Part shown: positions 8,488 through 50,924 of the stretch, in pieces
Layout: each line of letters opens with the position of its first letter
How positions within the stretch are numbered: position 1 is the first letter of the stretch
Virus record (IMG/VR): IMGVR_UViG_3300013093_000065
Coordinates: 1 to 51,865 of that record
DNA from: a virus
Reading direction: 5' to 3' (one strand)
DNA: 51,865 nt
Position numbers and translations under genes: made by a program
Notes under the pieces: generated by a model
What the model saw: only the letters and a program-made list of their open reading frames with translations
Database searches by the model: none
Told to the model about the DNA's origin: nothing

Positions 8488-8893
8488 ACAATTACTAATC
8501 GGAGTTACATTTATAGCAATCTCACTGGCCTTTGGCTTGGGAGGATTTGCCTATACTGTCGGAACTCCAGATGATGCGGGGCCCGGGTTCTTTCCCTTGG
8601 TAGTCAGCGTGTCGTTGGGACTTCTTGGCGTATGTTCAGTTATTAAAAGTTTTTTTAACAGAGACACAGTAACATTAAAATTAAGAAACCTTGCAATAAT
8701 TACCGCTTCATTATTGGCCTTTGCTGTTGCAACAGAATATATTAACATTGTTGTTGGTATTGTATTGTTGGTAATTACATCATCGTTTGCCAGTGAAAAA
8801 TATTCAATAAAAAATGTTGTATTGATTTCTGCAGGATTAGTTGTAGTTGCATATCTATTTAAATATCTTTTAGGGCTAAATTTACCACTATGA
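8477..8893 (+). CDS. tctB: Tripartite tricarboxylate transporter small membrane subunit (TctB family)
   Basis: A 138-residue integral membrane protein with four hydrophobic segments (about 6-26, 39-56, 71-104 as a pair, 113-133). The loop after the first segment carries DDAGPGFFPLVVS, close to the family block in which G-P-(G/A)-x-(F/L/W)-P begins the second helix. Length and topology match TctB. It partners TctA in a secondary transporter that takes substrate from a periplasmic binding protein. Its end overlaps the tctA start as ATGA. It sits inside the phage small-gene operon with no gap, which argues against host contamination. Confidence 0.85.
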   Translation: MGNKQLLIGVTFIAISLAFGLGGFAYTVGTPDDAGPGFFPLVVSVSLGLLGVCSVIKSFFNRDTVTLKLRNLAIITASLLAFAVATEYINIVVGIVLLVITSSFASEKYSIKNVVLISAGLVVVAYLFKYLLGLNLPL

Positions 8894-10389
8894 TAGACAC
8901 CTTAAATTATCTTGTAATGGGATTTGGCCATGCCCTTACTGTTCAAAATTTACTTTATTGCGCCATTGGGTGTTTCATCGGAACGTTAATAGGGCTACTA
9001 CCTGGTCTTGGACCAATTTCTACTATTAGCCTATTATTGCCACTGACTTATACAATGCCCACTACAGGTGCCCTTATTATGCTTGCCGGCATTTACTATG
9101 GCGCACAGTATGGAGATAGTGTCAGTGCTATTACTATGAAGATTCCCCACGCATCAAGCATAGTTGCCTGTATAGATGGATATCAAATGCATCTCAATGG
9201 GCAAACAGGTCTGGCCTTGTTTACTGCCGGTGTTAGTAGTTTCATAGGCGGAACAGTTGCTGCTGTAGTAATTGTATTTTTTGCACCTGTGTTGGGAGAA
9301 ATGTCATTCTTATTTGGCCCAAATGAATACTGTATGCTGATGCTGTTGGGCTTTGTCTGCGTTAGTTTGATTACCACAGGAAGTCTGCTCAATGGACTTG
9401 GCATGGTGTCTATAGGAATATTAGTCGGCATGGTTGGTACAGATGTCAACAGTGGTGTGACTCGTTACGCCATGGGCCTACCATTCTTAATGGACGGAAT
9501 AGGAATCATCAGTGTAGCAATAGGTAGCTTTGGCCTGGCTGAAATAATTAAAAATTTAGACAATCGAGATGAACGTACACCCTTTACAGGCAATATCAAA
9601 TTGATTCCAACCTGGGCAGAGTTTAAACGTATCATACCTTCGGCATTGCGTGGTAGCGTTGTTGGTAGTTTCTTGGGATTATTACCTGGAGGTGGCCCGA
9701 CTATTGCTCAGTACGGTGCTTATGCTGTAGACAAAAAGTTTAGTCGATATCGAGATGAAATGGGCAAGGGTGCAATAGAAGGAGTTGCCGGACAGGCCGC
9801 TGCAGATGAAGCCGCAGCTCGTACAAGTTTTATTCCTTTATTATCAATTGGCATTCCTGAAAATGCTGTTATGGCCTTGATGTTAGGTGCGTTAATGATC
9901 AAAGGCATCACACCAGGTCCGCAGATGATTACCAAACACTCAGAAGTGTTTTGGGGTCTGATTGCTTCCATGTGGATTGGCAATGTGTTCTTGTTGATAT
10001 TAAACGTGCCACTGGTCAAATACTGGTTAAGTATTTTTAAGATTCCTTATAGTGTACTTTTTCCTTGTATTTTATTCTTTTGTTGCTTAGGTACATTCAG
10101 TGGCAATAACAATATCAGCGACATCTATACTACGGCTATATTTGGTATCATGGGCTATTGGTTTTTAAAATTGGGACTTGAAGCGGCTCCGCTGATGTTG
10201 GGCTATATTTTAGGACCCATGCTGGAAGAACACTTTAGACGTGCTATGATGATCAGCAGGGGTAGCTTCAGCCCGTTTTGGGAACGCCCAATTAGCTGTA
10301 CTATGTTGATTTTAATAGGATTTTTTATTGTTTATAGCCTATATTCCTGGTTGACCAATAAAGGAAGAAGTGCTATAATAAAAGTGTAG
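8890..10389 (+). CDS. tctA: Tripartite tricarboxylate transporter large membrane subunit (TctA family)
   Basis: A 499-residue polytopic inner-membrane protein of the usual TctA length. The two signature loops of the inverted repeat are present: GLLPGLGP (35-42) and GLLPGGGP (263-270). The block IPLLSIGIPENAVMALMLGALMIKGITPGPQ (about 315-345) corresponds to the conserved substrate-translocation region. TctA uses ion gradients to import carboxylates such as citrate delivered by TctC. No TctC gene is present in the window; a host TctC could serve. The region 298-312, where host proteins often have an ESANNAA-type string, reads ADEAAAR here, a divergence worth noting. Last gene of its operon; a promoter for the next gene lies inside its 3' end. 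Confidence 0.92.
   Translation: MIDTLNYLVMGFGHALTVQNLLYCAIGCFIGTLIGLLPGLGPISTISLLLPLTYTMPTTGALIMLAGIYYGAQYGDSVSAITMKIPHASSIVACIDGYQMHLNGQTGLALFTAGVSSFIGGTVAAVVIVFFAPVLGEMSFLFGPNEYCMLMLLGFVCVSLITTGSLLNGLGMVSIGILVGMVGTDVNSGVTRYAMGLPFLMDGIGIISVAIGSFGLAEIIKNLDNRDERTPFTGNIKLIPTWAEFKRIIPSALRGSVVGSFLGLLPGGGPTIAQYGAYAVDKKFSRYRDEMGKGAIEGVAGQAAADEAAARTSFIPLLSIGIPENAVMALMLGALMIKGITPGPQMITKHSEVFWGLIASMWIGNVFLLILNVPLVKYWLSIFKIPYSVLFPCILFFCCLGTFSGNNNISDIYTTAIFGIMGYWFLKLGLEAAPLMLGYILGPMLEEHFRRAMMISRGSFSPFWERPISCTMLILIGFFIVYSLYSWLTNKGRSAIIKV
10351..10379 (+). promoter_or_regulatory. Sigma70-type promoter inside the 3' end of tctA
   Basis: TTGACC (10351-10356), 17-base spacer, extended TGC-TATAAT (10374-10379). 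It shares TTGACCAATAAA and GTGCTATAATA with the promoter at 34996. Predicted +1 about 10386, serving the gene at 10422. Confidence 0.75.
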
Positions 10390-13121: not shown

Positions 13122-14445
13122 TGCACTGGTCATATACGACCATATTACAATCCCTGATGTAGACTACAAACAACGCATAGTTGACATTACAGAATTCTTT
13201 GTAAAACCCGTTGTGGGATTTGATCTATATCGCACTGGTAATTTAACTGAAACGCTGTCGGGGTTAGCACAACGGGGATATCAGTGGGCTGTAGTCAATG
13301 CCCTGGGACACGCTGTTAATAGTCCAACAATTTACAAAGAAATTATCGACTATAGTGTTGAAAATAATTATCCTGTAACGGCACATATTATTTTTAGACC
13401 AGAAAATTATCCCTCGATTGATCCTCAATTTGTAGTGGTCAATCTAAAGACCTGGCAAGACTTAGGCAGTCCAGCATTTGAAGAGCGTCGTATACCGGCA
13501 GTATTTGATTCTTTTGAAGTTGACAGAAGTCCCGAAAACGCACACCACGATTACACACCCTATTGGATCAAGGCTCTGCCAAACACTAATAAATCATATG
13601 GTATATCTACAAGACCGTTTGGCAGTCTGGTTGTACAAAAATTTTTAGAAGCAGGCCATACAGTCAACGGTATCAGTCAGTCTATTAGACAATCTAAATG
13701 GAACTTGTATCCAAACATTAACTATGAAAAATTACAACCATTTTTCAAAGACGGAACAGTAACCTATAACGTAGGACAAGTACCTGAAATAATTGAAAGA
13801 GTACTGGGCGAAAAAGAATCGTTAAAAAATACAGTCTACATACTTAACAGTGAAAAATTGTATTCACCGAGCCCACAGTTGTCTGGACCTATTGATCACT
13901 TTATAGGTGTTGCCAGCGGATTTAAGACCGTACTACTGTTAAACAAACACGGATTTGCTGACCATACAAAAGTTACTTATGTAGACGTCAGCACAGCAGG
14001 ACTTGATTATCAACAGTACCTGATCAATGAATGGGACGGAGATATTGACCTATATCAGCAGACTGTTGACCTTTATCAAAGTCGACACCCTGAATATAGA
14101 TATGCCTGGAGAGATTGGCTTGAATGGAATAATGAAATCGATGCATTCTTAGCAGGATCTAATTTGACCAAGAGTCAATTTAAAGACCTTTGGTCAAGAT
14201 ATCGCAAACTGACATTTAATTTTGTTGTTGTAGATGTATTAAACAATCCCGAACAATTAGTCAACGAATTAACAACAGACTCTAAAAATGTTTACATATG
14301 GTTGAGCAATGCATTTGATATGCAGTATACAAGATTTTTGTTTGGCAAAGAATATACACAGCAAAAATTCAATCAACTACTTGATCAATTAAAAACTCAT
14401 AATTGCCTGGTTGAGTCCTGCGGCAGATTTTATACTGTATCGTAG
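13111..14445 (+). CDS. Large hypothetical protein, Rossmann-like character
   Basis: 444 residues with no recognised family. The first 130 residues alternate strand and helix (LVIYDHITIP, WAVVNALGHA, PQFVVVNLK). A middle segment (residues 240-330) contains TVYILNSEKLY, FKTVLLLNKHGF and TKVTYVDVSTAGLDYQQYL, which looks like a nucleotide or SAM-binding alpha/beta domain with an acidic strand end. Methyltransferase or sugar-transfer activity is a guess. The start is a TTG (13111) overlapping the previous gene; no in-frame ATG exists nearby. It converges with the minus-strand gene at 14430, overlapping by 16 bases. Confidence 0.65.
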   Translation: MLNNALVIYDHITIPDVDYKQRIVDITEFFVKPVVGFDLYRTGNLTETLSGLAQRGYQWAVVNALGHAVNSPTIYKEIIDYSVENNYPVTAHIIFRPENYPSIDPQFVVVNLKTWQDLGSPAFEERRIPAVFDSFEVDRSPENAHHDYTPYWIKALPNTNKSYGISTRPFGSLVVQKFLEAGHTVNGISQSIRQSKWNLYPNINYEKLQPFFKDGTVTYNVGQVPEIIERVLGEKESLKNTVYILNSEKLYSPSPQLSGPIDHFIGVASGFKTVLLLNKHGFADHTKVTYVDVSTAGLDYQQYLINEWDGDIDLYQQTVDLYQSRHPEYRYAWRDWLEWNNEIDAFLAGSNLTKSQFKDLWSRYRKLTFNFVVVDVLNNPEQLVNELTTDSKNVYIWLSNAFDMQYTRFLFGKEYTQQKFNQLLDQLKTHNCLVESCGRFYTVS

Positions 14446-15122
14446 CTGTTGACTACAATACTGCGCCACTGTGGCAAGTACTGTCCGTGGACAATCATAT
14501 GATACCTTGCTTCGGTGCTGTTATTCCAGACCATATGGTCATAGCTGGTATTAAAGGCCATGACAGATCCAGCAGAGTCAAACGGAACTGGCCCCGCATC
14601 TTTTAATATCATTTCGCACCCTGCAGGATTATTCAGACTAATGTTTACCGCCCCTAATCTAAATGTTTGACTGTCATGATGTGGAGCAATGTAACCACCG
14701 GCATCAATCTTCATAAATCGTAATCTAAAATACTTAGAATAAGGAAATTGTGTTTTAAAATATTTGGTAGCCACAGGACACAGATCGCTGATTTCAGTCC
14801 AGGCGTAGGGTAATTGATCGTCGGGAATTCCGCGATACTCGGGATAGGCGGAAGGACTGTCTGTTTTGGTTGCACCAAGTCCGTGCAGACATAGACTGGA
14901 CCATCCTTGACTTTCTCCATCATCTCGATGTGGCACGAATAGATGATCTAACATCTCTGCTTCTTTGAGTATTTCCTGCCAGGGCCCTGCTAAATTTATT
15001 TTTAAGTAAGGAATGCGTCCTGGGCCCACAATCCAGCTGAATTTATCAACCCCATCGGGTATTTTGGGGTATACATACTGAATATTATGGTATTTTTGGT
15101 AGAAATTTTGGAGGGCTTCCAT
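14430..15122 (-). CDS. Fe(II)/2-oxoglutarate oxygenase of the aspartyl/asparaginyl beta-hydroxylase type
   Basis: 230 residues from ATG 15122. The C-terminal half has the jelly-roll ligands: HHD (H148, D150), then H196 in SYDHMVWNNS and R206, which would bind 2-oxoglutarate. Between them are LGAVNISLNNPAGCEM and a glycine-Ser-V-MAFN strand, as in the AspH family. Such enzymes hydroxylate protein side chains or small molecules. The start at 15122 is preferred over 15149 because a late-type CAATAAATA ends six bases ahead, placing +1 on the A of this ATG. No ribosome site exists. It converges with the large unknown gene upstream on the map. Confidence 0.75.
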   Translation of the reverse strand: MEALQNFYQKYHNIQYVYPKIPDGVDKFSWIVGPGRIPYLKINLAGPWQEILKEAEMLDHLFVPHRDDGESQGWSSLCLHGLGATKTDSPSAYPEYRGIPDDQLPYAWTEISDLCPVATKYFKTQFPYSKYFRLRFMKIDAGGYIAPHHDSQTFRLGAVNISLNNPAGCEMILKDAGPVPFDSAGSVMAFNTSYDHMVWNNSTEARYHMIVHGQYLPQWRSIVVNSYDTV

Positions 15123-15127
15123 AGAAG

Positions 15128-15135
15128 TATTTATT
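15128..15135 (-). promoter_or_regulatory. Late-type promoter motif, predicted leaderless start
   Basis: On the minus strand, AATAAATA, five bases, then ATG (15122). In T4 the TATAAATA box occupies -13 to -6, which puts +1 exactly on this start codon. Confidence 0.55.
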
Positions 15136-15162: not shown

Positions 15163-15185
15163 GTTACTATAGTTAAATAAAATAT

Positions 15186-16199: not shown

Positions 16200-17075
16200 A
16201 TGTTTCAAATAATTCCCACATTATCCAGGCAGGATACACTATGGCCCGGCATTACCAATGAGCCAAGAAGTTGGTATCACGAACGTGTAGTGGGATCCAA
16301 TGAATTACTAATCACTGTTGGCGACTCTTGGACCTGGGGCGATGCCTTGGGAAATATATTTTTTCAATCCCCGGGATCGCCAAACAATGTCAACGACGAT
16401 TACGAGCACAGAACTACACATGTTTATGGTGCATTGTTAGCTGATCGTCTTGGCACAGACTTTTTGAACTTGGCATTTTGTGGTTGCGGTAACAGTTGGA
16501 TGAGTGAAAAGTTAGCCCTATTCTTACCCGACTTGGTCAAACGCTATTCAAAAATTACAGTAGTCATAACACTGACAGAAATTGGACGTGATGTAGCCAG
16601 CAGATATTGGGTCACGTCTGACCTGGACATGACTACATTAACTGGATTTTTAGAAAGTCTTGAACGCACAAGCCTGCGTCGATTCAAAGACCTGTTTGAT
16701 CAATATCCCAATGTTGACTTTTTAGTTGGACGTAATTTTACTTTTACTTACCCAGACAATTATCAATACTGTCAACAACACCTGCTTAAAACCTGGGTTG
16801 AAATAATTGAGGAGCAACAGGATATAGGACAGTATCCACGAGATCTACGCATGATGTCGGGTATCGCTTTTACTCCGGTTACAGAAACAATCAACGTCCA
16901 CGGACTGCAAAACAAATTCAAAGAAGAACTTTTACGTGAAATGACTCTGGCCACAGAAGCAATTACCTGGCTTGAACGGTCGGCCCTTAACAGCCGTTGG
17001 GCCACTAAACACCCCACAGAACCAGCACACGAGCTCTGGGCAAATTATCTTTATAATACTATTACAAATAAATAG
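16200..17075 (+). CDS. SGNH/GDSL-type hydrolase
   Basis: 291 residues. Block I is VGDSWTWGD with the nucleophile Ser (about residue 43). A GCGNSW block near residue 100 supplies the Gly and Asn of the oxyanion hole, and a C-terminal HPTEPAHELWANYL supplies the catalytic His. These residues define SGNH esterases, which remove acyl or acetyl groups from sugars, lipids or peptidoglycan. Substrate unknown; in a phage, modification of surface polysaccharide is plausible. It begins three bases after the IF-1 stop. Confidence 0.78.
   Translation: MFQIIPTLSRQDTLWPGITNEPRSWYHERVVGSNELLITVGDSWTWGDALGNIFFQSPGSPNNVNDDYEHRTTHVYGALLADRLGTDFLNLAFCGCGNSWMSEKLALFLPDLVKRYSKITVVITLTEIGRDVASRYWVTSDLDMTTLTGFLESLERTSLRRFKDLFDQYPNVDFLVGRNFTFTYPDNYQYCQQHLLKTWVEIIEEQQDIGQYPRDLRMMSGIAFTPVTETINVHGLQNKFKEELLREMTLATEAITWLERSALNSRWATKHPTEPAHELWANYLYNTITNK
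17067..17074 (+). promoter_or_regulatory. Late-type promoter motif, predicted leaderless start of SOD
   Basis: AATAAATA (17067-17074), five bases (GTAGT), then ATG 17080. By the T4 late-promoter rule +1 is the A of the start codon. Confidence 0.5.
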
Positions 17076-17079
17076 TAGT

Positions 17080-17625
17080 ATGAATGATATTCGCGAAACA
17101 ATAGACCTATTAGAAGCTAAAAATAAGCACACATTAGAGCAGATTAAACTGCCCTATAGCTATACAGCTTTAAGCCCTGTACTAAGCCAAACTAATTTGG
17201 ATTTACACTATGGCAAACTTTATAAAGGTTATGTTGACCGTTATAATTCCGGCGAGGGCGATCCTGCATTTAACGAAGCAGGTGCCTATCTACACGACAT
17301 ATTTTTTAGCCAATTCCGTCATCCAACCCCAGTACGCCCAACAGGTCGAGTCAGTGATTTAATCAATCGTCACTATGGTACATTTTTAGATTTTAAAGCA
17401 GAATTTAAAAAAGTAGCAATGACAGTCCAAGGATCGGGCTGGTGCTACCTGGCCCGCAACGGACAGGTTAAAAAAATATCAAATCATGCTAAACGTGCAG
17501 ATATTGTTATCTTAGTTGACATGTGGGAACACAGCTATCAAACAGACTACAGTTCAAACAAATCCAAATACTTAGACAATATTTGGAGAATAATGGATTG
17601 GTCTGTTATCAGTCAGAGAGTATAA
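17080..17625 (+). CDS. sod: Iron/manganese superoxide dismutase
   Basis: 181 residues, a little shorter than the usual 190-205. The opening IKLPYSYTALSPVLS aligns with the family start. Metal ligands are H43 (LDLHYGK), H72 (AYLHDIFF), D147 and H151 (VDMWEHSYQTDY); GSGWCYLA is the expected core turn. The gateway Tyr (Y51) is kept, but the His usually four residues after the first ligand is Leu (L47). The enzyme converts superoxide to hydrogen peroxide and oxygen in the cytoplasm. It is directly followed by an Fe-S assembly gene. Start 17080 is chosen because the protein begins there and because a late-type box is six bases upstream; no ribosome site is seen. Confidence 0.9.
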   Translation: MNDIRETIDLLEAKNKHTLEQIKLPYSYTALSPVLSQTNLDLHYGKLYKGYVDRYNSGEGDPAFNEAGAYLHDIFFSQFRHPTPVRPTGRVSDLINRHYGTFLDFKAEFKKVAMTVQGSGWCYLARNGQVKKISNHAKRADIVILVDMWEHSYQTDYSSNKSKYLDNIWRIMDWSVISQRV

Positions 17626-21195: not shown

Positions 21196-22794
21196 ATGGC
21201 AACCACTGTGCCATCCGATATCAGTAAACAACTACTGATCAGCATCTACGTTAAACGAGACGTTCACGACAACGGCATGACCTTAAAGGAATATGCCGAT
21301 GCTGTTATTGCCGGTACACATCCAATTTTAGATCATGATGAATATGTGTATCAATTTGGCGCCATACAAGAAGAAATTGATTTGGTAGTTAATTGGGCAA
21401 CTGCCAATGGTCTACAGGTTATTTCGTCTGATGCAGGAATAGCAACAGTTAAACTACAAGGTACCGTAGGATTGTTCAACAGTTTGTTTAATATCACATT
21501 AGTTGATGTAACTGATGACACAAGAACTTATGTAAATTATACAGGGACTGTTACTATTCCCAGTGCCATCATAGGCGTTGTAGAAAATGTATTGGGCTTT
21601 GATCAAAGTTTTGTGGCCACCAAACACGCAGTTACCGTTCCGCTCAACGCTACTAACCCCGATACAGTCAATCCAAACTACTCTGGTGCTGTTACTCCTG
21701 TTGACGTAGCTACAGCATATAATTTACCCGCAGGCGATGGTTATGGTGGATGTATTGGAATTTTTGAATTAACATATTCTGGTTACGTCACCGGATATAG
21801 TACAACCGATGTAACCAATAGTTTTAGTCGCATTGGTTTGACTGCTCCAACTATTGTAAACATAAATGTCGACGGAGCCTCTGCAAGTACTACCAGCGAC
21901 GCTGAAAGTATGTTAGACATTTACTGTGCTGGTGCAGTTGCACCTCGAGCAAAAATAGCCTACTATACAGCACCCAACGGCGGAACAACCGGCATTAATG
22001 ATAATATTCTTGCTGCTGCTGCGGATACTGTAAATAATCCCAGCGTGTTGAGTATTAGTTGGGGAATAGGCGATGGCAATTCTTTTGACACCGCCATGCA
22101 AACTTGTGTAGTCAAGGGAATTACAGTTATTGTAAGTTCCGGAGACCACGGGGCAACGGGCGGTGCAATCGATTCCAGCAGTTGTACCAGCCCTTACATG
22201 ATCAGTGCAGGTGGCACAAATATTGGAATTACCAGTGGTACAAAAATAGGCGAGTATGCCTGGGTCAGCAGTGGCGGCGGAGTTAGTTCTTCTCAACCAA
22301 GACCAAGTTGGCAAAATGGATTGACCTATACTACTAAAACCAACACCGGAACTTTGGGTACACCAACTGCCCTACCGCGTCGAGGTATTCCCGATATCAG
22401 TGCACCAGCAGATCCTTACACAGGATATCAATTTTATGTAAACGGTATACTACAACAATATGGTGGAACCAGTGCTGCCGCTCCGTTTTTAGCCGGGGCT
22501 ATAGTTAGATTAAATCAATTATTGGGCAAAAGAATTAGTTTACCAATGTCTACTTTTTACGGAAATACCACAGCATTTACAGACATTACCGGAGGCGATA
22601 ACATCAGCGGTTATTCAATTGGTTATGCAGCTACCACTGGATGGGACGCTGCCACTGGGTTAGGTGTTATAAATGGCCCTAATTTCTACAAATTATTTAA
22701 AACTGGCTCGACTTTTCCAAGACAAAACTACGGTTTTAGACCCACAACTGGCGTCGGTTATCCCAGACCTTATCAGAAACTTACCGGTCGTTAA
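21196..22794 (+). CDS. Peptidase S53 (sedolisin/kumamolisin family) with propeptide
   Basis: 532 residues. Residues 1-145 resemble the pro-kumamolisin activation domain, with a FGFxQ-like junction. The catalytic residues of the family are all present: E237 and D241 (DAESMLDIYCAG, the normal four-residue spacing), D317 (VSSGDHGATGG, oxyanion Asp) and S426 (YGGTSAAAPFLAG). SISWGIGD and a C-terminal DITGG...DAATGLG calcium site complete the fold. S53 enzymes are acid endopeptidases that self-activate. No signal peptide is visible. It lies between two fibre genes, two bases after the first, with GGAG before its ATG, so it is probably a virion protein that processes fibres or digests host surface protein. 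Either role is inference. Confidence 0.9.
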   Translation: MATTVPSDISKQLLISIYVKRDVHDNGMTLKEYADAVIAGTHPILDHDEYVYQFGAIQEEIDLVVNWATANGLQVISSDAGIATVKLQGTVGLFNSLFNITLVDVTDDTRTYVNYTGTVTIPSAIIGVVENVLGFDQSFVATKHAVTVPLNATNPDTVNPNYSGAVTPVDVATAYNLPAGDGYGGCIGIFELTYSGYVTGYSTTDVTNSFSRIGLTAPTIVNINVDGASASTTSDAESMLDIYCAGAVAPRAKIAYYTAPNGGTTGINDNILAAAADTVNNPSVLSISWGIGDGNSFDTAMQTCVVKGITVIVSSGDHGATGGAIDSSSCTSPYMISAGGTNIGITSGTKIGEYAWVSSGGGVSSSQPRPSWQNGLTYTTKTNTGTLGTPTALPRRGIPDISAPADPYTGYQFYVNGILQQYGGTSAAAPFLAGAIVRLNQLLGKRISLPMSTFYGNTTAFTDITGGDNISGYSIGYAATTGWDAATGLGVINGPNFYKLFKTGSTFPRQNYGFRPTTGVGYPRPYQKLTGR

Positions 22795-27817: not shown

Positions 27818-27825
27818 GCTAAATA
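27818..27825 (+). promoter_or_regulatory. T4-like late promoter motif
   Basis: GCTAAATA, predicted +1 near 27831. A TGGAG ribosome site and ATG 27853 follow. Confidence 0.55.
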
Positions 27826-29971: not shown

Positions 29972-29979
29972 TATAAATA
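29972..29979 (+). promoter_or_regulatory. T4 late promoter motif, exact TATAAATA
   Basis: TATAAATA, predicted +1 near 29985; CAGGAG and ATG 30002 follow. Confidence 0.65.
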
Positions 29980-34447: not shown

Positions 34448-34757
34448 ACAAACAGATCACGGTGACAGAGGTTGGTTTGTAGGGCAATGGGAAAAGGCTG
34501 TGTTTAGAACCGATCTATTTGAAGTAGCTCACGGTTTTAATGTAGCCGGTGAACACAGTCCAAATCACTATCATCAAAAAGCCACAGAAATTAATTTAAT
34601 AACATCGGGCAAGGTCAAAGTAAATGGCGAAATATTTACAGCCGGTGAAGGTTTTATCATGGAACCCGGCGACACTTGTGAATGCTATTATATAGAAGAT
34701 ACCTATACATTGGTTGTTAAAACTCCATCAGTACCCAGCGATAAATATTACATATGA
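34434..34757 (+). CDS. Cupin-fold protein
   Basis: 107 residues. The first cupin box is H45-x-H47 with E52 (NHYHQKATEINLITSG), and the second is EPGDTCECYY, where the usual His is a Cys. A metal site of two His and one Glu is therefore plausible. Cupins include dioxygenases, isomerases and sugar epimerases. It overlaps the radical SAM gene by 14 bases and probably acts in the same pathway. Confidence 0.85.
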   Translation: MKRFKQTDHGDRGWFVGQWEKAVFRTDLFEVAHGFNVAGEHSPNHYHQKATEINLITSGKVKVNGEIFTAGEGFIMEPGDTCECYYIEDTYTLVVKTPSVPSDKYYI

Positions 34758-35723: not shown

Positions 35724-36297
35724 GATTATATTAGTTGATGCAGATGGTGTGTTGTTAGATTGGGAATATGCGTTTGACGTTTACCTACAGCAACACGGTT
35801 TCAACAAAATAGAAGGCGGCAATTTAAAATATGATATTGGCAAGCGGTACGGCATTGATCGTGAACAAGGTAAACGATTAATAAAACTGTTCAACGAGTC
35901 GGCACATATTGGATTCCTGCCAGCATTACGTGACAGTATGTTTTATGTAAAACGTCTACATGAAGAACATGGTTATGTATTTCACTGTATTACAAGTCTA
36001 AGTCGAGATGAAAATAGTCAAGAGTTGCGTAGAATGAATTTGCGTAAACTGTTTGGCAAAACAGCATTTGAAAAGTTTGTATTTTTAGACACTGGTGCTG
36101 ACAAAGATTTAGCATTAGAACCTTATCGCAACAGTGGTTATTACTGGATCGAAGATAAAATTACCAATGCCCAAGTTGGACATAGCCTGGGACTTAAGAG
36201 CCTGTTAATGGAACACGGACACAATATGGATTTTGTTGATCCCAATATTCCACTTGTTAAAAACTGGAAAGAAGTTTACGAACGTATAGTGGGTTAA
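35713..36297 (+). CDS. HAD-superfamily hydrolase, deoxyribonucleotidase-like
   Basis: 194 residues. Motif I is VDADGVLLDWE with the nucleophile D9 and acid D11. CITSLSRD is a motif II-like strand, and YWIEDK near 155 is motif IV-like. The DxDGVLxDW opening is that of the 5'(3')-deoxyribonucleotidase group, which controls nucleotide pools. It ends in TTAA, shared with the stop of the convergent gene. Confidence 0.75.
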   Translation: MKNKIILVDADGVLLDWEYAFDVYLQQHGFNKIEGGNLKYDIGKRYGIDREQGKRLIKLFNESAHIGFLPALRDSMFYVKRLHEEHGYVFHCITSLSRDENSQELRRMNLRKLFGKTAFEKFVFLDTGADKDLALEPYRNSGYYWIEDKITNAQVGHSLGLKSLLMEHGHNMDFVDPNIPLVKNWKEVYERIVG

Positions 36298-37313
36298 CTA
36301 CCACAGGTTTCATTGCAAGTGTAATGGCGCCCATTGGCTACAGAATCGATTGACCAGGTTTTTTCTAATTCATTAAACCAGTCAATTGATTTTTCAATAC
36401 CAATTTCTAAAGCATTATTTTCTTTTAATACCGCACGAGTGTGATCCGTTCCAGGACGTATTACGTTGGTGCGTGGAGAAAATCCAATCCAACAACAAGG
36501 ATAAACTTCTCCATTGCTTTGTACATATATTTCTCGTCCTTGCAGTATCTGACATTTAATTTCTTTTGCAGGCGTATCTTTATAAAGCATATCCACGTGA
36601 TTGTCTAAATTTTGTTTTAGACGATCTGTCATTATTTTTCGATAATCTAATAACTTTGTAAAATTTAATTCGTGTGTTGGCTCACCAATGCTGTGTTGAT
36701 AGTTGCCGTCTCTATCATAAACTGCGGTATTATTCCTACCGTGATTTACAAGATTAAAACTGGCAAATCCCATGTCTTGACTGCGTTGTTTGGCTTCGGC
36801 TCTTTGATGTTCATTAAAATCAAATTCGATCATGACCCACATAGCTCGTCCACCAGCATTGATAAATTTTTGAGCATTGCTCATTATTAAATTAAAGTCG
36901 GTGTATTGTCTGTATAGATGGTGCGTATCCTCGAGACCGTCAATTCTAAACCCTACACTGACACGTGGAATCTGTCCCAGTGCTTCCCATATCTTGGGTT
37001 GCCCTGATCCGTTTGTACTAATATCTATGTTTAATTGTGGGTTAGATTCAGCAAAATATTGAACAATAGGTAAAGCATCACGACAAGTAACAAAGTCGCC
37101 ATAATTACCATTAATGTATAGTCTGCGTAGTTGTTTTAGAAATTCAACGGGAAAGATTTTTTTGGCTTCAGCCAAGGTCATGTCATGCACTACGAAATCG
37201 CCCAGGTCTTCAATGTCAACCCCGCGAAGATTGCGTGGACACTCAGGACAGGCTGCGTTGCATCGGCTACTTATTTCAAGATGAACTACTCTTATATCGG
37301 AATATGAAAACAT
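36294..37313 (-). CDS. Radical SAM/SPASM protein
   Basis: 339 residues. The radical SAM cluster motif is C18, C22, C25 (SRCNAACPECPRN), near the N-terminus as usual. The C-terminal SPASM-like part has CQILQGREIYVQSNGEVYPCCWIG and a final CNETCGS, which would hold auxiliary clusters. SPASM enzymes often modify peptides. Start 37313 is preceded on the minus strand by an exact TATAAATA six bases ahead, so the mRNA may be leaderless; no ribosome site is present. It needs reduced Fe-S clusters, linking it to the ErpA gene in function. Confidence 0.85.
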   Translation of the reverse strand: MFSYSDIRVVHLEISSRCNAACPECPRNLRGVDIEDLGDFVVHDMTLAEAKKIFPVEFLKQLRRLYINGNYGDFVTCRDALPIVQYFAESNPQLNIDISTNGSGQPKIWEALGQIPRVSVGFRIDGLEDTHHLYRQYTDFNLIMSNAQKFINAGGRAMWVMIEFDFNEHQRAEAKQRSQDMGFASFNLVNHGRNNTAVYDRDGNYQHSIGEPTHELNFTKLLDYRKIMTDRLKQNLDNHVDMLYKDTPAKEIKCQILQGREIYVQSNGEVYPCCWIGFSPRTNVIRPGTDHTRAVLKENNALEIGIEKSIDWFNELEKTWSIDSVANGRHYTCNETCGS

Positions 37314-37318
37314 TCAAA

Positions 37319-37326
37319 TATTTATA
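37319..37326 (-). promoter_or_regulatory. T4 late promoter motif, predicted leaderless start
   Basis: Minus-strand TATAAATA (exact T4 consensus), five bases, then ATG 37313; +1 predicted on the A of the start codon. Confidence 0.65.
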
Positions 37327-37351: not shown

Positions 37352-38179
37352 TTAGACCTCCCCATAAATTTTTAGTATTTCCACAACAGCAGCATGACGA
37401 TGTATATCGCGCCCCGCAAACTCGATTCCGTCTACAAATTTACAGTTGTCATATTGAGCAACAAGACGTTTAAAGTCCAGTAGTCCGTTATTATTTTCCT
37501 TGCGGTCTGCTTGTTGTGTATCGCCGGTTACTACCATCTTACTATTATCACCTAAACGTGTGAGCAGCATTTTCATCTGATTGGGAGTCGCGTTTTGCAT
37601 TTCATCTGCAATAATCCACGAGTTTTTAAATGTCCGTCCACGCATGTATGCCAGGGGAGATATCTCAATTGTTGATTCATCTAACATACGAGTGATTTCG
37701 CTTTGCCGATAGTAGTCAGCAAATACATCCATGATAGGTCTTGTCCATGGAGCCATTTTTGCATTCAGGTCACCTGGTAAGAAGCCATGTTCTTCGTCGT
37801 CCACTCCTACAGCTGGACGTGTTATTATTATTTTTTGTATTACTCCTTCTTGATAAGCTCTAATAGCTGCCATTACAGCCAGCATGGTTTTACCCGTGCC
37901 AGCAGGTCCGGTAGCAAATATAATAAGTTTACTTGGGTCGGTAAGCAAGTCTATGTAAGTTTCTTGGTTTAGACTTTTGGGTATTAATTCTACTTTTCGT
38001 CTCTGACTGTGCTGGGGTTCATCAGCGGTTACTAATCTTAAGTCAGGTGTTGGTTTTTTTCTTTGTTTTTGATAGTGAGTTGGTTGATTGTAAAACTGTG
38101 ATGTTTCTACTGATCGATTACGACGCTTGGACAAGTGATCCTCCTTGGATTCAAAAAATGCGGACTTGCCATATTCCAT
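37352..38179 (-). CDS. phoH: PhoH-family ATPase
   Basis: 275 residues from ATG 38179. After a basic linker (SKRRNRSVETSQFYN) the ATPase domain has Walker A FATGPAGTGKT, TRPAVGVDDEEHGFLPGDL, Walker B SWIIADEMQNATP and VVTGDTQQ, all PhoH signatures. PhoH is an ATPase with proposed RNA helicase-type functions, found in many phages. A TTG at 38215 could extend it by 12 residues, but a late-type GTAAATA (38217-38223) would start transcription near 38211, so the ATG is preferred. No ribosome site. Confidence 0.88.
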   Translation of the reverse strand: MEYGKSAFFESKEDHLSKRRNRSVETSQFYNQPTHYQKQRKKPTPDLRLVTADEPQHSQRRKVELIPKSLNQETYIDLLTDPSKLIIFATGPAGTGKTMLAVMAAIRAYQEGVIQKIIITRPAVGVDDEEHGFLPGDLNAKMAPWTRPIMDVFADYYRQSEITRMLDESTIEISPLAYMRGRTFKNSWIIADEMQNATPNQMKMLLTRLGDNSKMVVTGDTQQADRKENNNGLLDFKRLVAQYDNCKFVDGIEFAGRDIHRHAAVVEILKIYGEV

Positions 38180-38216
38180 TTTTATTTGCGAACTGGAATA
38201 TACCGGTCCACGCAAA

Positions 38217-38223
38217 TATTTAC
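38217..38223 (-). promoter_or_regulatory. Possible late-type promoter motif for phoH
   Basis: Minus-strand GTAAATA; predicted +1 near 38211, leaving about 32 bases of leader before ATG 38179. A small palindrome GATAC-A-GTATC (38231-38241) lies just upstream. Confidence 0.4.
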
Positions 38224-38281: not shown

Positions 38282-38839
38282 TTAAACTGGGCTGCGATTA
38301 TTAGTCAACCACTCAGCATAAATTGAGTTATTTGCGTCCGGGTACATTTCAACAACTGAAAAATTAAACAATTCTGCAAACTCTACGTGCTTGTCAAATG
38401 TCCAAGGATAATAGGGATTTCCTGCTTGATCAGTTCCGCCAGCAAAACAACGCCAGTAGATTCTTGAGTCGCGTTTTTTAAGTACATCAATTACAGTAGC
38501 AATTTGACGTTGTATATCTGCATCAGTACCGTAGTTAATACTACCCAAGCAAAAAGCTACATCAAACTTTTGAGATTTAAACGAATAGGCAAACTGCTCC
38601 ATTGTCATTACTTGATCGGCAGCTGAATTAACAGGATCTACCCCAACTAAATTTGCTATCATTCCTTTAAAGGGATTATTAGCACAGCCCACGTGTACCA
38701 CACGTTCTGCTATTAGTATTTTTTCACCCAGAGTATAGCCCGAATATTCATAGTCATCGAGCGTAATATCGCGTGTTTGATAGTTAGGTCCGTAAAATAT
38801 GTTAAGTTGCGTTTGAGCAAAATCTTCTTGTGTAGTCAT
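38282..38839 (-). CDS. SAM-dependent methyltransferase-like protein
   Basis: 185 residues. Motif I is VVHVGCANNPF (about residues 47-57), followed by an acidic strand end LVGVDP and a FDVAFCLGSINYG motif IV strand, as in methyltransferase 11 proteins. A C-terminal FNFSVVEMYPD strand completes the fold. Substrate unknown. The start is ATG 38839, six bases after the end of a minus-strand TTAAATA, so it too is predicted leaderless. Confidence 0.72.
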   Translation of the reverse strand: MTTQEDFAQTQLNIFYGPNYQTRDITLDDYEYSGYTLGEKILIAERVVHVGCANNPFKGMIANLVGVDPVNSAADQVMTMEQFAYSFKSQKFDVAFCLGSINYGTDADIQRQIATVIDVLKKRDSRIYWRCFAGGTDQAGNPYYPWTFDKHVEFAELFNFSVVEMYPDANNSIYAEWLTNNRSPV

Positions 38840-38844
38840 AGTAT

Positions 38845-38852
38845 TATTTAAC
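38845..38852 (-). promoter_or_regulatory. Late-type promoter motif, predicted leaderless start
   Basis: Minus-strand GTTAAATA, five bases (ATACT), then ATG 38839. Confidence 0.5.
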
Positions 38853-38873: not shown

Positions 38874-38881
38874 GATAAATA
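38874..38881 (+). promoter_or_regulatory. T4-like late promoter motif
   Basis: GATAAATA, predicted +1 near 38887, ahead of ATG 38902. Divergent from the minus-strand box at 38845. Confidence 0.5.
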
Positions 38882-40897: not shown

Positions 40898-40905
40898 GGT
40901 AAATA
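40898..40905 (+). promoter_or_regulatory. T4-like late promoter motif before the lysis region
   Basis: GGTAAATA, predicted +1 near 40911; AAGGAG and ATG 40932 follow. Confidence 0.55.
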
Positions 40906-44389: not shown

Positions 44390-45253
44390 ATGACTCATTA
44401 CGCAACTTTAGGTGTAGCCGAAAACGCATCACCCGAAGAAATCAAAAAAGCCTATAGACGACTTGCCAGCCAACATCATCCAGACAAGGGTGGTGATACC
44501 CAACGGTTTCAAGAAATTCAAACAGCCTACGATGTGTTAAGTGATTCCAGTCGGCGCCAGCAATATGATATGCAACGCCAAGGACCGGGGCCTGGATTTA
44601 GATTTACAGTCAACGGACAAGAGATGAGTGGCATGCCGGGTGGTATGGAAGATCTACTCAGAGGCTTTGGTTTTAACTTTGGCGGAGGATTTCCGGGTGG
44701 AGATCCATTTGGACATGTTAGACAGCCCAGACGTAATAAAGATTTACGTATAGATATTCCAGTTACATTAGCCAGCACATTTGAAGAACAAAAAAAGACA
44801 ATTAGTGTACAAACTACTAACGGGCACAGAGAAACAGTAGAAGTAACTATACCACGTGGGGTTACTACAGGAACACAAATTAAGTATTCTGGATTAGGTG
44901 ACAATTTCTTTGGAAGTTTAGCACGTGGTGATTTGTATGTAAACTTTGTAGTAACTCCGCCACCTGGATATTTTATTGATGGCCTGGATATTATAACCAC
45001 AGCCGAAGTTGATTGCTTGGATGCCATTACCGGTGGAGAGCTTGAAGTTGCTGGCATCGATGACACTAAGTTTAGCCTATCTATTCCGGCAGGTATACAA
45101 CACGGAACCATGCTACGAATTGCTGGACATGGTATTTGGCTATTAAATAGCTCGCAAAGAGGCAATTTACTTGTTAAAATACATGTTACTGTGCCTAAAA
45201 ACCTTAGTTCAGCACAAGTAGATTTAATCAAACAAATAAAGAATACACAATAA
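44390..45253 (+). CDS. DnaJ/CbpA-type co-chaperone (no zinc finger)
   Basis: 287 residues. J domain at residues 1-68: YATLGVAENASPEEIKKAYRRLA then HHPDKGG (H30-P31-D32). A Gly/Phe-rich linker (residues 75-110) precedes two C-terminal beta domains (IPVTLASTFEEQKKTISV and IPAGIQHGTMLRI). No CxxCxGxG zinc repeat is present, so it is CbpA-like. It stimulates host DnaK. The neighbour is a ClpA-like unfoldase, suggesting a joint remodelling unit. No ribosome site: the message is predicted leaderless. Confidence 0.9.
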   Translation: MTHYATLGVAENASPEEIKKAYRRLASQHHPDKGGDTQRFQEIQTAYDVLSDSSRRQQYDMQRQGPGPGFRFTVNGQEMSGMPGGMEDLLRGFGFNFGGGFPGGDPFGHVRQPRRNKDLRIDIPVTLASTFEEQKKTISVQTTNGHRETVEVTIPRGVTTGTQIKYSGLGDNFFGSLARGDLYVNFVVTPPPGYFIDGLDIITTAEVDCLDAITGGELEVAGIDDTKFSLSIPAGIQHGTMLRIAGHGIWLLNSSQRGNLLVKIHVTVPKNLSSAQVDLIKQIKNTQ

Positions 45254-45256
45254 ATA
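45249..45256 (+). promoter_or_regulatory. T4-like late promoter motif
   Basis: AATAAATA overlapping the dnaJ stop; predicted +1 near 45262, ahead of the ClpA-like gene. Confidence 0.45.
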
Positions 45257-50650: not shown

Positions 50651-50921
50651 TCTTAATGTAGATGTCTATTGCGGAACTACCAGCGACGGCCCTCCCATTT
50701 ATAGAGTTTTTGTTGATGGTGAATTAGTAACCGAGCGTAGTTGGGCGTGGCCAGCGTATCAGGTCTATATTGAAGAAAATATTGTAGTTAATCTTGAGCC
50801 CGGAGCACACGAAGTTAGAGTAGAAAGTTTAAACAATATTGGTAAACTTACTGCTAAAAATTTAAGAGTAAACGGTCATCCAATGGACAATGATGATTTA
50901 ACGTTTATTACATATAGCTAA
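50637..50921 (+). CDS. Small Ig-like/carbohydrate-binding protein
   Basis: 94 residues, a compact beta sandwich with IYRVFVDGELVTERSW and VVNLEPGAHEVRVESLNN. Similar to the fold of the gene at 49406. Overlaps the nucleotidyltransferase gene by 14 bases. Probably a virion surface protein. Confidence 0.65.
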   Translation: MALISLNVDVYCGTTSDGPPIYRVFVDGELVTERSWAWPAYQVYIEENIVVNLEPGAHEVRVESLNNIGKLTAKNLRVNGHPMDNDDLTFITYS

Positions 50922-50924
50922 ATA
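50917..50924 (+). promoter_or_regulatory. T4-like late promoter motif
   Basis: GCTAAATA, predicted +1 near 50930, with TTGGAG before ATG 50947. Confidence 0.55.

Follow-up and report, generated by a model that had tools for sequence, protein, structure and literature searches.

A putative class of leaderless late genes with T4-type promoter boxes in large environmental phages

TAAATA boxes and gene starts in the window

The window analysed here, a viral record from IMG/VR with a length of 51,865 bases, represents part of the genome of a T4-superfamily phage; its genes include a gp44-like clamp loader, PhoH, a Clp-like protease, an endolysin and structural genes. The assignment is based on replication and virion core genes: the gp44-like clamp loader lies in the window itself, and further core genes are found in its relatives, the larger of which encode gp41, gp43, uvsX, gp46, gp47 and a gp55-family late sigma factor; the relative G022 encodes gp18, gp20, gp21 and gp23. 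By DNA polymerase (with the polymerase of the relative G012 as query), the closest named phages, at about 50% identity, are Phosso, PA5oct-like phages and Atu_ph07. The 127-kb record G031 (IMGVR_UViG_3300006116_001117, also listed as L213) is 99.3% identical to positions 1868–33660 of the window and, judged by this identity, represents either the same phage or a very close one. Two further genes of the window are a full-length TctA subunit of a tripartite tricarboxylate transporter (8890–10389, plus strand; PF01970, 4.4e-140), likely an auxiliary metabolic gene in this phage record, and, amid the structural genes, a subtilase with a pro-kumamolisin activation domain (21196–22794, plus strand).

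A radical SAM gene of 339 amino acids is located on the minus strand at 36294–37313 (phrog_21308 radical SAM, 7.5e-15; the Pfam Radical_SAM match is marginal, 0.032). The minus strand at its start reads CTCTATAAATATTTGAATGTTTTCA, in which a perfect TATAAATA box (37326–37319) is followed by TTTGA and the ATG (37313–37311), exactly as described in the original prediction. A pattern scan recovered the two further minus-strand cases named there, with TAAATA again five bases from the ATG: the box at 15128–15133 precedes an aspartyl/asparaginyl beta-hydroxylase-like gene (14430–15122; PF05118, 1.6e-12), and the box at 38845–38850 precedes a conserved methyltransferase-like gene (38282–38839; weak Methyltransf_25 match, 0.012). 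The same spacing is found on the plus strand, where TAAATA at 17069–17074 precedes the ATG of an Fe/Mn superoxide dismutase gene (17080–17625; PF02777, 1.1e-22, with PF00081 matching too). At a spacing of six bases, TAAATA precedes ATG 15186 (box 15174–15179, plus strand), the divergent partner of the 15122 gene, and ATG 34754 (box 34742–34747, plus strand), a weaker leaderless candidate that lies within the preceding gene. The arrangements at 15122 (with identical sequence), 15186 and 17080 recur in G031. The three minus-strand genes had also been taken as the first genes of their units; the shared spacing of five bases holds for all three, and the 37313 gene is internal, behind the 38839 gene and PhoH. 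PhoH itself (37352–38215, minus strand) has an ambiguous start, as a TAAATA in the 38215–38222 region ends one base 5' of TTG 38215 and 37 bases 5' of ATG 38179.

Conservation of these cases differs. Relatives of the methyltransferase-like gene in L035, L036, L047 and L063 keep a [TC]TAAATA-type box followed by N5-ATG, and several others carry the one-base variant TATAAGTA-N5. For the beta-hydroxylase-like gene the search of viral homologs returned the near-identical record alone; the Mosig gene at 92996, of the same Pfam family (PF05118), also has TAAATA-N5-ATG. The radical SAM case is not conserved, as the box is missing in the five relatives L002–L006.

A second set of boxes lies at larger distances on the plus strand. 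The leadered positions comprise a TATAAATA late-promoter box at 29972–29979 (22 bases 5' of ATG 30002, with AGGA) and TAAATA at 27820–27825 (27 bases 5' of ATG 27853; GGAG), at 40900–40905 (26 bases 5' of the endolysin ATG 40932; AAGGAG), at 45251–45256 (18 bases 5' of the Clp-like TTG 45275; GAGG), at 50919–50924 (22 bases 5' of ATG 50947; GGAG) and at 38876–38881 (20 bases 5' of ATG 38902, the divergent partner of the 38839 gene).

Spacing classes in the window and its relatives

The proposed search for TAAATA-N5-ATG against background returned five sites in the window, compared with a mean of 1.31 in 100 shuffles (sd 1.17, maximum 4), and hence not an equal frequency. Long ORFs start at four of the five sites (15122, 37313 and 38839 on the minus strand, 17080 on the plus strand). 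The fifth, 45262 on the plus strand, was rejected as a gene start: its TAAATA is the box of the Clp-like TTG 45275, with GAGG in between. Within the window the motif as such shows no excess (TAAATA 44 observed versus 70.9 expected, TATAAATA 3 versus 5.48), and the signal therefore lies in the placement of the motif and not in its abundance. This lack of enrichment and the small number of sites are what speaks for the view that the three original cases arose by chance in A/T-rich DNA. Against it stand, besides the shuffles of the window, the summed counts from 30 related records (122 TAAATA-N5-ATG sites versus 39 for reversed-pattern controls) and the counts at called gene starts given below, and we regard chance as hardly credible.

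The spacing d is defined as the number of bases between TAAATA and the start codon; except in annotated phages, gene starts were taken from a simple in-house caller that considers coding potential alone. For ATGs of ORFs of at least 80 amino acids, the spacing profile of the window and of three large relatives with lengths of 329, 219 and 140 kb has two peaks: a spike at exactly 5 (4, 14, 6 and 5 cases) and a wide maximum at 17–24. The profile for ATGs of ORFs shorter than 40 amino acids is flat. Among the 1198 called genes of eight records, d = 5 occurs 30 times versus a mean of 2.35 in dinucleotide shuffles (maximum 8 of 300 shuffles). For d = 4–7 the counts are 53 observed and 9.2 in shuffles, for d = 16–36 they are 165 and 48.8, and between these classes lies a valley at d = 8–15 (12 versus 18.2); the broad leadered peak spans about 17–36 bases. 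With G031 and G022 added and stop-codon overlaps and duplicates removed, the ten records yield 35 sites at d = 5, 66 at d = 4–7, 18 at d = 8–15 and 170 at d = 16–36. An origin of the near peak in TAAATA motifs whose TAA ends the upstream gene was rejected, as such overlaps account for only 6 of 54 sites and the peak stays after their removal. When hexamers are ranked by their occurrence at d = 5, TAAATA is the sole member of the top twelve that is not of Shine-Dalgarno type.

The two classes also differ in their start regions. A Shine-Dalgarno motif is present in 3 of 54 starts of the d = 4–7 class versus 89 of 165 starts of the d = 16–36 class, and 53 of the 54 near starts are ATG; the near class thus combines a dearth of Shine-Dalgarno sites with AUG starts, as expected of leaderless genes. 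Position −1 is T at 34 of 37 sites with d = 5, compared with 328 of 1141 genes (29%) that lack the box; the usual bacterial initiator has a pyrimidine at −1 and an A at +1. Divergent neighbours are about equally frequent (11 of 54 leaderless versus 31 of 165 leadered genes), and together with the plus-strand superoxide dismutase gene this removes the claim that the rule is specific to the minus strand. With respect to gene content, the radical SAM, beta-hydroxylase-like, methyltransferase-like and superoxide dismutase genes of the window are joined in the relatives by virion genes, namely in G022 the portal gene at a spacing of 7 and the tape measure gene at a spacing of 5, and in G012 a baseplate wedge gene (spacing 5), as well as by several homing endonucleases and genes of unknown function.

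A/U-rich unstructured sites aid translation initiation in general, and TAAATA might accordingly be a translation signal, either a site of ribosome entry or an S1 site on a longer leader, with no promoter involved. The A/T-rich motif and the near absence of Shine-Dalgarno sites in the five-base class agree with such a role. The sharp optimum at 5 and the valley at 8–15, however, favour a fixed distance to +1 over an effect of composition, the identical box is found 17–36 bases 5' of other genes, often together with Shine-Dalgarno sites, and the T at −1 is specific to the five-base class. A translation signal is therefore an improbable explanation.

Late sigma factor, promoter geometry and occurrence among phages

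In T4 the late box spans −13 to −6 (PMC2988020), and five intervening bases therefore place +1 on the A of the ATG. Spacing, dearth of Shine-Dalgarno sites, T at −1 and T4 numbering all fit leaderless transcription. A gp55-family gene is present in G012 and G022 (phrog_12791, 2.9e-79 and 3.6e-72), and G006 likewise has a match to T4 gp55; none was detected in the window or the near-identical G031, both of which are partial genomes. We propose that the boxes at five bases very probably mark a set of leaderless late genes, confined to some lineages, with a T4-type late promoter read by a gp55-RNA polymerase. A gp55-family late sigma factor and the host RNA polymerase would recognise TAAATA/TATAAATA, and the RNA would start five bases downstream of the box, which at these genes coincides with the A of the start codon. 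The mRNA would be leaderless, or carry at most 1–3 leader bases, and its translation would have to do without a Shine-Dalgarno site. At other genes of these phages the box would be used from about 17–36 bases upstream, giving a leader that has a Shine-Dalgarno motif in about half of the cases. The 5' end at or near the start codon is a prediction from T4 numbering only; we infer it, and likewise the involvement of gp55 at such boxes and the leaderless mode of translation. As some sites have a spacing of 4, 6, 7 or 8 bases, a leader of 1–3 bases is possible at some of them.

The five-base class also occurs at annotated gene starts in HTVC008M, a cultured SAR11 (Pelagibacter) phage, in which 12 of 14 TAAATA-N5-ATG sites are annotated CDS starts, mostly of virion genes and including gp2, gp4, gp48, gp25, gp3 and the tape measure gene. 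The Pelagibacter phage Mosig and the methylophage Melnitz show the class at annotated starts as well, with far fewer sites. The box at the gp2 gene is kept in HTVC008M and Mosig, and the gene at the corresponding place in Melnitz (annotated as hypothetical) also has it; at the adenylate cyclase gene TAAATA-N5-ATG is kept in HTVC008M and Melnitz. Boxes 5' of late (virion) genes are thus exemplified by HTVC008M, G022 and G012. Together with the genome-wide counts and the gp55 genes of the relatives, the virion genes of HTVC008M support the original proposal that a T4-type late promoter stands at a leaderless distance from the start.

The class is not a universal trait of the T4 superfamily. The likeness to the T4 late promoters (gp55/gp33/gp45) consists in the TATAAATA box, an A/T-rich downstream segment and the gp55-family sigma factor of the window's relatives; in T4, however, no called gene has the box at 4–7 bases and 21 have it at 16–36, whereas the group of the window has a distinct class exactly at the start codon. 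Late promoters of the cyanomyoviruses S-PM2, Syn9 and P-SSM2 have been described as NATAAATA, with the same core box as here (PMC2984593). Neither Syn9 nor S-SKS1 has a box at 4–7 bases among called genes and P-SSM2 has four, all with A at −1; leadered sites number 55 in Syn9 and P-SSM2 together. Counts at 4–7 bases are 2 in PA5oct, 1 in Atu_ph07 and 2 in RHph_I1_18. A superfamily-wide trait was therefore rejected: T4, Syn9, S-SKS1, PA5oct and Atu_ph07 have no such sites or only background numbers of them, and P-SSM2 and RHph_I1_18 have a few. Given this absence or paucity in T4, the cyanophages and the jumbo phages tested, the leaderless class is restricted to some lineages.

The comparison also bears on whether the box might be a −10 element of the sigma-70 type, read by the host polymerase to yield leaderless transcripts and independent of gp55. 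Bacterial leaderless genes do have a −10 box at a similar distance. The −10 hexamer pattern TANNNT, however, does not match TATAAATATTTG at 37313, the hexamer is identical to that of the leadered class and precedes late genes in the T4 family and in HTVC008M, and T4-family phages that lack the leaderless class carry the same box in leadered position. We consider a host promoter of this type very improbable and retain the gp55-dependent late promoter as the preferred reading.

Leaderless phage messages have a precedent in phiYS40, a Thermus phage that is no relative of T4 and has different promoters. Most of its middle and late mRNAs are leaderless and are translated via a shifted balance of initiation factors (PMC3594737); leaderless messages of these classes are the point of likeness, and the group of the window differs in that it mixes leaderless with leadered late genes. 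Our search of the open-access literature, with most subscription journals outside its range, returned no description of leaderless transcripts combined with T4-type late promoters, nor one of the five-base class in HTVC008M, Mosig or Melnitz. The part of the Melnitz report that lists 15 late promoters does not mention their spacing (PMC9004378).

Divergent boxes, bS21 and two translation classes

In G021 (44667/44680; L107: 4667–4680) two divergent genes are only 12 bases apart on a common CATCTAAATATTTATATG, with both starts at a spacing of 5. The palindromic arrangement CAT-N-TAAATATTTA-N-ATG is also found in L214, L222, L255 and L289 and is possibly a minimal bidirectional leaderless promoter. 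Long ORFs flank 16 of the 81 examined matches to CATNTAAATATTTANATG on both sides, a count that stands without a control pattern.

Ribosomal protein bS21 is encoded by G031 (86376–86624, minus strand; L338), where the start of the bS21 gene itself has TAAATA-N5-ATG. Phage-encoded bS21 is present in G031, G012, G006, G009, HTVC008M, Mosig, PA5oct, Atu_ph07 and Phosso. It is conceivable, if on the whole unlikely, that the leaderless late mRNAs of this clade form a second late translation programme, favoured by a phage bS21 through a change of the ribosomes at late stages of infection. Since PA5oct, Atu_ph07 and Phosso combine bS21 with few five-base sites, a link between bS21 and leaderless starts is hypothetical only.

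Among T4-like phages, the leaderless late-promoter spacing is frequent in one group of large environmental members, with no sign of it in T4. Prediction of late promoters reportedly failed in pelagimyophages (PMC7029224), and the spacing described here would suggest one reason for that failure in SAR11 myophages. Calls of start codons and promoters would improve, as TAAATA at five bases would mark a start that lacks a Shine-Dalgarno site. If the proposed reading is true, transcription start and translation start are tied together in one fixed element of 14–16 bases in large phages, and the late genes of these phages would split into two translation classes.
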